This document shows positions 59,879 through 62,405 of a stretch of 64,000 nucleotides of DNA, one piece after another. A model generated the notes under the pieces. That model worked only from the letters and a program-made list of their open reading frames with translations, was not told the DNA's origin and searched no databases. Location: positions 124,001-188,000 of the forward strand of contig NZ_RYYS01000032.1 in assembly GCF_004138215.1 (NCBI RefSeq), written 5' to 3'. Made by a program: the position numbers and the translations under genes. The stretch's first letter is position 1; each line of letters begins with the position of its first letter. The stretch is from Anaerophilus nitritigenes (GTDB lineage Bacteria > Bacillota > Clostridia > Peptostreptococcales > Thermotaleaceae).

Positions 59879-60976
59879 ATGATTGGGATAAAATTAGGAA
59901 AAGTTATTAAAATTTTAAAAGAAGATGAAAATAAAACAGAAGTATTGGTAAAAATAAAAGATAAAGAATATAAAGCTATCAATTACAATAGATTAACAGG
60001 AAAAATCAATTTAGAGGATGAGCTGATTTTAAATACTACTGCACTTGATTTAAGTTTAGGAACAGGAGGATATCACTTTGTCATCTCTAATTTAAATCAT
60101 CCAAATAAAGATTTAAGCCAGGGTGGACATATTGTGAAATTAAGATATTCTCCTTATCAACTAAAAGTTTTTGCATCAGAAGAGCAAGATAGTAAAGATC
60201 ATGATTGTTTTAACAAATTTAAATCTTTAGAAGGAATGCCTGTGATTGTAGGTACATTACATAGTATGCTTCCTCCTATTATAGAAGTTTTAAAGAAATT
60301 AAAACCAGATATAAAAATTAGTTATATTATGACAGATGCAGCAGCACTACCTATTGATTTAAGCAATATGGTAACAAATCTAAAAGAAAAGAAAATGATT
60401 CATAAGACTATTACGATAGGAAATGCATTTGGTGGAGATTTAGATTGTGTAAATATTTATAATGGTTTGATTGCTTCAAAGGAAATTACAAAATGTGATA
60501 TAGCAGTAGTTACAATGGGACCTGGAATTGTAGGGACAGGAACAAAATTTGGTTTTACTGGAATTGAACAAGGAAATATTATTGATGCAGTTAGTGATTT
60601 AGGAGGAGTACCTATTGCAGTTCCTAGAATGAGCTTTGCAGATCAAAGAAAAAGACATCAAGGGATCAGTCATCATACCCTTACAGTTTTAGATACCATT
60701 GCCAAAACAAAAGCCATTGTGGGATTTCCACAATTAGAACAAGAAAAACAAGAATATATAAAAGAACAATTAAAAAATACTTTTATTTTATCCAAACATA
60801 AAATTGTTTATAAAGATTGTAAAGAAATTTACCATATTTTAAGAGATTCAAATTTAAATATGAGAACTATGGGAAGAAGCTTTGAAGAAGAAAAAGAATA
60901 TTTTATGACCTGTGGACTTTCTGCAAAGATTGCTTTGAAACTTTTAGATGATCCTCAATCAAATCTTCTAGATTAG
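59879..60976 (+). CDS. DUF3866 family protein
   Basis: This 365-aa cytoplasmic protein matches DUF3866, found mainly in Actinobacteria and Clostridia. An N-terminal beta-rich part (1-75) is followed by an alpha/beta domain with a glycine-rich TMGPGIVGTGTKFGFTGIEQG (about 219-239) and RHQGISHHTLTVLDT. No enzyme activity is known to me. It lies between the SteA/SteB-transferase group and nudF in many Clostridia. Its last 74 bp overlap the small minus-strand MciZ-like gene. Confidence 0.82.
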   Translation: MIGIKLGKVIKILKEDENKTEVLVKIKDKEYKAINYNRLTGKINLEDELILNTTALDLSLGTGGYHFVISNLNHPNKDLSQGGHIVKLRYSPYQLKVFASEEQDSKDHDCFNKFKSLEGMPVIVGTLHSMLPPIIEVLKKLKPDIKISYIMTDAAALPIDLSNMVTNLKEKKMIHKTITIGNAFGGDLDCVNIYNGLIASKEITKCDIAVVTMGPGIVGTGTKFGFTGIEQGNIIDAVSDLGGVPIAVPRMSFADQRKRHQGISHHTLTVLDTIAKTKAIVGFPQLEQEKQEYIKEQLKNTFILSKHKIVYKDCKEIYHILRDSNLNMRTMGRSFEEEKEYFMTCGLSAKIALKLLDDPQSNLLD

Positions 60977-61067
60977 TATACTTGTTGGACAGATCTTCTA
61001 AAACTTCTAGTAATTCGTAAACTTTACCCACACAAAAAAGATGATTGTCAAAAATAATTTTATACAT
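60903..61067 (-). CDS. Small MciZ-like protein (candidate sporulation inhibitor of FtsZ)
   Basis: A 54-codon frame on the minus strand starts at ATG (61067) with AAAGGA nine bases before it, and an in-frame TGA lies upstream. Residues 10-37 read LFCVGKVYELLEVLEDL then SNKYTNLEDLI. Compared from memory with B. subtilis MciZ (40 aa), it aligns without gaps: VGK at 13-15, E18, L23, D35 and I37 are identical, and Y17/W17, L19/I19, Y30/F30 and L33/V33 are similar. mciZ also lies beside nudF and is sigma-E dependent. A sigma-E-type promoter is present here. R20, important in MciZ, is Leu here. The C-terminal 14-17 residues are extra. Confidence 0.6.
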   Translation of the reverse strand: MYKIIFDNHLFCVGKVYELLEVLEDLSNKYTNLEDLIEDHLKVSKQSLQKVHRS

Positions 61068-61099
61068 TTTATCAAATCCTTTACAATAGAATTTGATTC

Positions 61100-61128
61100 A
61101 GTATATGAAAAGTTGTCCCACAATATTC
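61100..61128 (-). promoter_or_regulatory. Sigma-E-type promoter of the MciZ-like gene
   Basis: On the minus strand GAATATT (61128-61122) and CATATACT (61107-61100) are separated by 14 bp. The sigma-E consensus is KMATATT-N13/15-CATACANT; only one -10 base differs. The start of transcription should fall at about 61093, 26 nt before the ATG. Confidence 0.6.
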
Positions 61129-61144
61129 CTAAAGGAGGATAAAA

Positions 61145-61684
61145 ATGATACCCAAAGAGGAAACTATAAAGACTGAAATGATTTTCAAAGGAAAAATGAT
61201 CAATCTCAGAGTAGATACAGTACAATTACCAGAGAAAAAGTTAGGAACTAGAGAAATCGTAGAACATCCTGGGGCAAGTTGCATTGTGCCTATTACAAAA
61301 GACAAAAAAATTATTATGGTAAAACAATTTAGAAAACCTATAGAAGATATTTTAATTGAGATTCCGGCTGGAAAATTAGATAAAGGAGAAGATCCTTATG
61401 ATTGTGCTATAAGAGAATTAAAAGAAGAAACAGGATATATAGCCCAAAATGTAGAATATTTATTTCAATTTTATACATCAGCAGGATTTTCTGATGAAGT
61501 AATTTATTTATATGTAGCAAAAGACTTAACTTTAGGAGATGCAAATCCTGATGAAGGAGAGTACATAGAAATAGAGGAATATTCTATAGAGGATCTTTTG
61601 GAGATGATTTACAATGGAAAGATTAAAGATTCTAAAACAATAATGGGTATCTTAGCTGTAAAAGATAGTTTGTTAAAAAAATAG
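61145..61684 (+). CDS. nudF: ADP-ribose pyrophosphatase (Nudix hydrolase NudF)
   Basis: NudF (179 aa) hydrolyses ADP-ribose to AMP and ribose 5-phosphate. The Nudix box G-x5-E-x7-R-E-x-x-E-E-x-G-Y begins at GKLDKGEDPYDCAIRELKEE (about 78-97) and is intact. The N-terminal strand-exchange region (KTEMIFKGKMINLRVDTVQLP) is typical of ADP-ribose pyrophosphatases. AAAGGAGG is 7 bp before ATG. It precedes spoIIM, as in B. subtilis, and is divergent from the MciZ-like gene. Confidence 0.94.
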   Translation: MIPKEETIKTEMIFKGKMINLRVDTVQLPEKKLGTREIVEHPGASCIVPITKDKKIIMVKQFRKPIEDILIEIPAGKLDKGEDPYDCAIRELKEETGYIAQNVEYLFQFYTSAGFSDEVIYLYVAKDLTLGDANPDEGEYIEIEEYSIEDLLEMIYNGKIKDSKTIMGILAVKDSLLKK

Positions 61685-61703
61685 GACAAATTTAAATAGA
61701 CAA

Positions 61704-61733
61704 GTCATATTCTCTCTTTCATATGCATAATAT
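61704..61733 (+). promoter_or_regulatory. Sigma-E-type promoter of spoIIM
   Basis: GTCATATT (61704-61711) and CATAATAT (61726-61733) are separated by 14 bp, close to the sigma-E consensus. B. subtilis spoIIM is sigma-E dependent. The spacing equals that of the promoter of the MciZ-like gene on the other side of nudF. Confidence 0.65.
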
Positions 61734-61766: not shown

Positions 61767-62405
61767 TTGCTTAAAAGATTTAATAATATTGTTTTAAAGC
61801 ATATACAAGGAAATGCCATGATTTATTTTTTGGTATGTATGTTTTTTATTATAGGTATTTCATCTGGAGCTTTTACTGTGAAGGCATTAACAGATCTTCA
61901 AAAACAAGAATTGATTCAATATATGAAGAGCTTTTTTCAAATTTTAAATAAAGACTCTATTGAATCACTTGCTATACTTAATCAATCTTTAAGTAATAAT
62001 TTACAAACAGTAATTCTTATTTGGATTTTAGGAGTTACAGTAATAGGTATGCCCCTTATATTGATTTTAGTAGGTATAAGAGGTCTGATTATTGGTTTTA
62101 CTGTAGGGTTTTTTATAGAACAACTTGGGTGGAAGGGAATGGTTTTTGCACTGGCTTCAGTATTACCTCAAAATTTATTTATTATTCCTAGTATTATTAC
62201 CATAGGTGTTATTGCAATTAGTTTTTCAAAGATGCTTCTTAGACTTAAATTCAATAAGTCTCATTCATTACATAATAATACGTTTAAGCAGTTTGTATTG
62301 TATAGCACCATTAATGGAGCTATATTTATAGTTGTGATTTTAGGATGTGTAATTGAAGCTTATATCACACCTATATTTATGAAGGTAATTGCAGGATATA
62401 TGTAA
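61767..62405 (+). CDS. spoIIM: Stage II sporulation protein M
   Basis: SpoIIM (212 aa) is an integral membrane protein that with SpoIID and SpoIIP drives septal peptidoglycan degradation during engulfment of the forespore. Five hydrophobic segments are visible. The family motif near the middle, with LGVTVIGMPLILILVGIRGLIIGFTVGF and ASVLPQNLFIIPS, is intact. The start is TTG, preceded by GGAAGGGGG. A sigma-E-type promoter lies upstream. It is followed by a tiny membrane-protein gene and xerD. Confidence 0.95.
   Translation: MLKRFNNIVLKHIQGNAMIYFLVCMFFIIGISSGAFTVKALTDLQKQELIQYMKSFFQILNKDSIESLAILNQSLSNNLQTVILIWILGVTVIGMPLILILVGIRGLIIGFTVGFFIEQLGWKGMVFALASVLPQNLFIIPSIITIGVIAISFSKMLLRLKFNKSHSLHNNTFKQFVLYSTINGAIFIVVILGCVIEAYITPIFMKVIAGYM

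Follow-up and report, generated by a model that had tools for sequence, protein, structure and literature searches.

Gene arrangement between DUF3866 and nudF

The 64,000-nucleotide stretch of Anaerophilus nitritigenes DNA that was analysed, here called the window, carries a small minus-strand gene between a DUF3866 gene and a gene for a NUDIX hydrolase, with spoIIM following in the same cluster (Table 1). The hydrolase gene is presumably nudF, a name taken over from a preliminary description of this DNA. That description had pointed to a hidden minus-strand frame of 54 codons with its own ribosome-binding site; the frame was present exactly as claimed, with its ATG and TAA confirmed, and a Shine-Dalgarno-like sequence precedes it. 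The gap between DUF3866 and nudF spans 60977-61144, and the 3' part of the small frame (60903-60976) overlaps the end of the DUF3866 coding sequence by 74 bases. The encoded protein has a conserved core of approximately residues 1-43, and its last 11 residues form an extension that is also present in a genome of the same genus (G001). AGG-containing sites were found upstream of the start among the 15 loci of the family described below. Both SpoIVA and SpoIIM are encoded by the genome that carries the gene, which is called mciZ-like here for the relationship presented in the following sections.

Table 1 Features of the mciZ-like locus, in window coordinates
Feature	Position	Strand	Description
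mciZ-like gene	60903..61067	minus	ATG at 61067, 54 codons, TAA ending at 60903
Ribosome-binding-like site AAAGGA (Shine-Dalgarno-like)	61077..61082	minus	9 bases upstream of the mciZ-like ATG
DUF3866 gene	59879..60976	plus	Convergent neighbour of the mciZ-like gene; PF12982, 8.3e-136
NUDIX hydrolase gene (nudF-like)	61145..61684	plus	Divergent neighbour of the mciZ-like gene; PF00293, 1.3e-20
spoIIM	61767..62405	plus	Sporulation gene, same cluster; TIGR02831, 200.7 bits (cut-off 100.2)
-10 element CATATACT, sigma-E-like promoter	61100..61107	minus	Compared with the sigma-E consensus
-35 element GAATATT, sigma-E-like promoter	61122..61128	minus	Spacer 14; compared with the sigma-E consensus
SpoIIID-like site TGGGACAACT (GGGACAA)	61111..61120	minus	In the promoter spacer; 9/10 to the SpoIIID consensus

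Conservation of the reading frame

The protein was searched against a set of 98 genomes, its own included, at E values up to 0.01; the family contributes 16 genomes to this set. A homologous frame was found in 15 of the 16 family genomes, own counted, and the sole family genome without it, G004, is 76% complete. The sixteenth match among the 98 genomes (G084/L016, E 0.0076) lies inside a 385-aa frame with no neighbour match and was set aside as chance-like. At all 15 family loci the frame lies on the strand opposite to DUF3866, at the 3' end of that gene. The other flank is nudF in 10 of the 15 and spoIIM in the remaining five, and the five loci divergent from spoIIM have no nudF match within the fetched stretch. 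A scan of named genomes (seven loci from 52 pattern matches) identified Thermotalea metallivorans, Geosporobacter ferrireducens and G. subterraneus as carriers, along with metagenome-assembled genomes called Marinisporobacter (two), Alkaliphilus and Anaerosolibacter; these seven loci are the records L005, L006 and L008-L012 and are not additional cases.

The family proteins are 43-44 aa long in 13 of the 15 genomes, compared with 54 aa in the window and 53 aa in the same-genus relative. The window gene and that of the same-genus relative gave dS 0.34 and dN 0.08 over 40 codons, and dN/dS was 0.07-0.66 among the listed pairs with a finite ratio. The preliminary description had proposed that relatives with the same gap be inspected for stops, frameshifts and synonymous bias, and in these relatives the frame was kept with synonymous bias. 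The overlap with DUF3866, and the presence of the nudF ribosome-binding site in the upstream part, would suit a chance open frame whose conservation derives, on the opposite strand, from DUF3866 coding or from the leader of nudF. However, within the first 30 codons, outside DUF3866, codons 2-30 still gave pS 0.39 against pN 0.08 relative to the nearest relative, and 15 genomes share the place, the start region and a 43-codon core; a chance origin has next to no probability. An antisense RNA without a protein is disfavoured by the selection seen at the codon level. By these comparisons of codons, the mciZ-like frame is under purifying selection and far from chance.

Relationship of the protein to MciZ

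Searched alone, the window protein had no match to the MciZ family PF13072 up to E 10; its best Pfam match was DUF5497 (E 0.047), its best PDB match had an E value of 0.97, and NCBIfam gave none. Because these single-sequence searches returned no useful match, family profiles were used: A1, the family alignment and its profile; A2, a wider profile; and a Bacillus-type set of 30 MciZ proteins. PF13072 was matched by 6 of the 15 family members at E up to 10. Nine family members were scanned singly against the same model, and four matched, one of them above the cut-off. The orthologue L010 matched model positions 1-35 of 37 with 27.2 bits, the cut-off being 22.2.

The A1 profile aligned with the 30 Bacillus-type MciZ proteins without gaps over 41 columns (prob 95.9). 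With trimmed columns, hhalign gave a score of 40.9 (prob 96.2, E 2.7e-9); 300 column shuffles averaged 8.6 and reached 18.3 at most, and the reversed profile scored 14.1. A comparison of the frame with an MciZ profile and with shuffled sequence had been suggested at the outset, and the profile built from Bacillus-type proteins only ranked the mciZ-like ORF first among the 1548 frames of the window (E 0.0032, against 1.6 for the runner-up) and scored it higher than all 2000 shuffles. This profile is independent of the clostridial proteins; the 'noF1' profile (E 2.9e-11) is not, as its clostridial rows were found with A1. The identities to B. subtilis MciZ given in the preliminary description (V13, G14, K15, E18, L23, D35 and I37) proved correct, with an overall identity of 20% in the alignment. 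The B. subtilis reference was PDB chain 2mrw_A, which matches residues 21-60 of 4u39_J and is the peptide printed in the accessible part of PMC5045927.

A PDB search with the A1 profile gave nothing up to E 10, the MciZ structure 4u39 included. This miss, together with the failure of the window protein to match PF13072 and its low identity to B. subtilis MciZ, would agree with a real, conserved small protein that is unrelated to MciZ and lies beside nudF by coincidence. Such an account is very improbable, however: the profile-profile score is far above the shuffles, L010 exceeds the Pfam cut-off, and the position and orientation are the same as those of Bacillus-type mciZ. Homology of the ORF to MciZ, taken alone, is very probable.

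Synteny and distribution

The order of G635 was taken as Bacilli because the MciZ of G635 is close to that of B. subtilis; MciZ was above the cut-off in 53 of the 81 genomes of this order. At its best 30 loci, Bacillus-type mciZ was divergent from nudF in every case, and DUF3866 was the convergent neighbour at three, within the fetched stretch. The place beside nudF and near spoIIM had been likened to that of mciZ in B. subtilis, and the synteny holds. PF13072 was above the cut-off in 11 of 299 genomes drawn from the phylum, and 11 of the 17 matches listed adjoin DUF3866 and/or nudF (L060 and L061 below the cut-off). Four phylum matches (L062-L065) inside frames of 457-1128 aa were set aside, and L050 and L054 had no neighbour match within the fetched stretch. 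The weak PF13072 matches other than L043 were likewise rejected, lying inside frames of 208-1200 aa.

Within the class, A1 matched 24 of 291 genomes at E up to 0.01, own included, with 25 matches in total, two of them in the own genome. Of the 23 others, 17 were short antisense ORFs at the DUF3866-nudF locus and six (L031, L032, L034, L035, L036 and L039), in frames of 90-294 aa without neighbours, were set aside. The A2 profile matched 25 of the 291 genomes, and 21 were counted as sound after G156, G228, G336 and G341 (E 0.001-0.007) had been dropped before the SpoIVA count. SpoIVA was encoded in 20 of these 21 MciZ-positive genomes, compared with 208 of 291 overall (hypergeometric p 0.007, for genomes that are related and not independent). 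The one MciZ-positive genome without a SpoIVA match, G175, is 92% complete and may reflect either a gap in the assembly or retention of the gene by a non-sporulating organism. A2 found no match in 266 of the 291 class genomes, many of which have SpoIVA, and in these genomes absence and divergence beyond the reach of the profile are indistinguishable. Among the 98 relatives, 27 were matched by A2, and three order-mates (G017, G049 and G087; L121, L151 and L152) carry an MciZ-like ORF at a DUF3866-nudF-spoIIM locus. Together with the 17 class and 11 phylum matches, these loci extend the arrangement to other families. Two scans of viral contigs found no relative of the mciZ-like gene.

Promoter-like sequences upstream of the mciZ-like gene

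The consensus for sigma-E promoters is KMATATT-N13-15-CATACAHT, and the sequence GAATATT-N14-CATATACT at 61100-61128 agrees with it at 14 of 15 positions. Three sites of this quality were observed in the window and 0.34 were expected. Over the 15 family loci, the best sigma-E scores summed to 195, whereas 500 dinucleotide shuffles averaged 162 and did not exceed 171. The match was individually significant (p < 0.05) at 11 of the 15 loci and was not notable upstream at the other four (L008, L009, L010 and L012). The sigma-E-like promoter that had been claimed is thus borne out as a predicted element kept at most family loci. The promoter DNA overlaps the nudF leader, and part of its conservation could belong to that leader on the opposite strand.

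A putative site for SpoIIID (consensus WWRRACARNY) lies in the promoter spacer. Sequences agreeing at 10 of 10 positions, as a raw count of consensus matches, were found at 9 of the 15 family loci, all nine at -50 to -54. An AGACAAG sequence was also observed upstream of spoIIM at 61698-61704. The identification of the ORF as MciZ, proposed in the preliminary description, is supported at the sequence level by the profile-profile match, the score of L010 above the Pfam cut-off, the synteny and the sigma-E-like promoter.

Residue differences and predicted structure

Arg20 presumably matters in B. subtilis MciZ, but we do not take it to define the family. The remark that this residue is Leu in the window protein was right as sequence: all 13 family rows have Leu at position 20, the 10 Bacillus-type rows all have Arg or Lys there, and in 25 other rows Arg occurs in six and Lys in one. 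A search of the accessible literature found no paper combining 'MciZ' and 'R20D'. All 10 Bacillus-type rows have Trp17, as does one of the 25 other rows; none of the family rows does, their residue being Tyr, Ser or Lys. Every one of the 13 family rows keeps G14, K15 and L23 and has an acidic residue at position 18. Judging from these residues, a contact with FtsZ, if it exists, must differ in detail from that of Bacillus MciZ.

The single-chain AlphaFold model, made with eight sequences in the alignment, contains two helices and no hairpin (mean pLDDT 76.7), with the lowest confidence at the N-terminus (pLDDT 59 over the first ten residues). Since the N-terminus of free MciZ is reported to be unstructured in the accessible part of PMC7430163, this model speaks neither for nor against the identification as MciZ.

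The Leu at position 20 in all 13 family rows and the absence of Trp17, along with the MciZ-positive genome G175 without a SpoIVA match, could also be explained if the gene descends from the same ancestor as mciZ and its target or role has changed in Clostridia, with another divisome protein as the target or with no role in sporulation. We consider such a change unlikely: G14, K15, L23 and the acidic position 18 are retained, the sigma-E-like promoter is kept at most loci, and SpoIVA accompanies MciZ in the class at the frequency given above, in genomes that are related. The ORF is probably a clostridial orthologue of Bacillus mciZ, including the inhibition of FtsZ in the mother cell, as predicted from its sequence and setting.

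A second MciZ-like gene and SOS-type micro-peptides

A second MciZ-like gene was observed in the same genome (G000:C60:47495-47623; L041, L127). It encodes 43 aa, matches the A2 profile at E 3.8e-7, and lies upstream of a presumed addB gene, from which it diverges. The gene is conserved in G001 (88%) and G009 (70%), with pS 0.34-0.61 compared with pN 0.04-0.16, and is also present in G012, G014, G015, G042, G056 and G064 (loci outside the own genome: L128/L165, L129, L148-L150, L160, L163 and L164). At seven of the nine loci an extended -10 (TGnTATAAT) is followed by a TAGGnnTAnAGTCCTA-like palindrome that agrees at 11-14 of 14 positions; L148 and L149 (G056 and G064) lack this combination. 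In the own second copy the palindrome reads TGGGTATAAAGTCCTA, the sole exact match of the searched pattern in the genome, and no sigma-E-like site was noticed at this gene. A profile of the nine proteins scored 25.9 against Bacillus-type MciZ (E 7.7e-6), and the best of 150 shuffles scored 15.6. For the own second-gene sequence alone, 5 of 1000 shuffles scored as high.

In order-mates, A2 additionally picked up ORFs of 24-31 aa of the type MKVFVFSGKVKDLRxYLKEW, which resemble the MciZ core. The first eight loci were L126, L153-L156, L158, L161 and L162. At all eight, a putative LexA-type box (GAAC-N4-GTTC; 8-10 of 10 positions by raw match count) was found within 130 bases upstream. A profile of these first eight micro-peptides matched 33 of 198 genomes of the order at E up to 0.01, three of which (G746, G774 and G754) had three to four matches each; the own genome was not matched. 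Twenty-two further loci were fetched (L173-L176 and L179-L196). A LexA-type box with at least 8 of 10 positions, at loci whose peptides are 22-37 aa long when taken with the first eight, was present at 15 of these 22 (shuffle p 0.017 or less for each), a group that includes several near-identical genus-mates and so is not a set of independent cases. The box was not found at the other seven (L173, L175, L182, L190, L194, L195 and L196); the start of L190 was called too far upstream. One of the seven, L194 (G001:C14:665006-665056), is a 28-aa frame beginning MFLSFSGSVKELRVYLKAL in the same-genus genome and resembles the SOS-type micro-peptides.

The micro-peptide profile scored 22.0 against Bacillus-type MciZ (prob 74, E 2.8e-5), compared with 15.1 for the best of 150 shuffles, and for single micro-peptide sequences 1-34 of 1000 shuffles scored as high. 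In place of Arg20, the aligned position holds Arg at all of the first eight loci and Lys at some later ones. In the stretches inspected, with translations read by eye, lexA was not beside the micro-peptides. From their sequences and upstream boxes, the micro-peptides are a candidate SOS division inhibitor of some Clostridia. The accessible text of PMC8457756 reports agreement between a clostridial LexA motif and the B. subtilis motif, and that of PMC4689574 describes a C. difficile lexA mutant as filamentous. In C. thermocellum a YneA-like gene is reported beside lexA (PMC8457756, likewise in part), so a known kind of SOS inhibitor exists elsewhere in the class.

Discussion

The mciZ-like protein resembles B. 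subtilis MciZ (PF13072; PDB 2mrw, 4u39) in its core of about 40 aa, gapless over 41 columns with G14-K15, and in a gene that is divergent from nudF and preceded by a sigma-E-like promoter. It differs in having Leu for Arg20, no Trp17 and, in its own genus, an 11-residue C-terminal extension. Its locus also differs from most Bacillus-type loci in having DUF3866 as the convergent partner, an arrangement that the fetched stretches show for 3 of the 30 Bacillus-type loci. According to the available portions of PMC5045927, PMC4929429 and PMC7430163, B. subtilis MciZ is made under sigma-E and caps FtsZ, forming a hairpin on the C-terminal sheet of FtsZ; two papers, again as far as their available text goes, disagree on which end of the FtsZ filament is capped (PMC4929429, PMC11938149). 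By analogy with B. subtilis, we infer that FtsZ is the target, that it would be capped, and that this would happen at mother-cell timing. After asymmetric division sigma-E would become active in the mother cell and would transcribe the mciZ-like gene from the promoter at 61100-61128, and SpoIIID might tune the gene later through the site in the spacer.

We know of no sequence relation between SulA and MciZ. The predicted MciZ-like peptide would act, like SulA, on the same polymerisation face of FtsZ, as that face is described in the accessible part of PMC11938149. SulA differs from MciZ in being SOS-controlled and in acting by sequestration (PMC4929429, in the portion available). YneA and SosA, SOS division inhibitors of Bacilli, are similarly division brakes made on demand and are relevant to the SOS-type micro-peptides; YneA is distinguished by a LysM domain (available text of PMC8457756), and SosA is listed for PMC6851548.

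The second MciZ-like gene and the SOS-type peptides may turn out to be more important than the main gene. We give an even chance to the view that MciZ belongs, as one branch among others, to a broader superfamily of FtsZ-capping micropeptides with a strand-GK-helix core and three kinds of control: sigma-E, an extended -10 of the sigma-A-like type accompanied by a TAGGnnTAAAGTCCTA-like palindrome, and LexA (SOS). If so, the sigma-E branch would comprise the window gene and Bacillus mciZ and would serve sporulation. The palindrome type would be the second copy found in the own genome and six others, with two further copies lacking the palindrome, and the LexA-controlled peptides, the shortest of 22 residues, would inhibit division during the SOS response of order-mate Clostridia.

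A literature search that rested partly on titles found no description of MciZ outside Bacilli, and in the portions available the papers describe MciZ from Bacillus only (PMC5045927, PMC4929429, PMC8274934, PMC7430163, PMC7903761, PMC12016500, PMC11938149). Databases may list some clostridial MciZ, as the Pfam model already reaches such genomes. In Bacillus, the small protein MciZ arrests division of the mother cell while the spore is made, and the findings suggest that this brake is common to Bacilli and Clostridia. Several clostridial families have the gene at this one position and with a promoter sequence of the mother-cell type, which suggests that the block of a second division in the mother cell is ancient or borne by the locus; it would have been part of sporulation before Bacilli and Clostridia split, or would have moved with the locus. 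The MciZ variants, some without Arg20, are a natural set for defining what FtsZ recognition needs, and the mciZ-like gene offers a ready test in a sporulating anaerobe.
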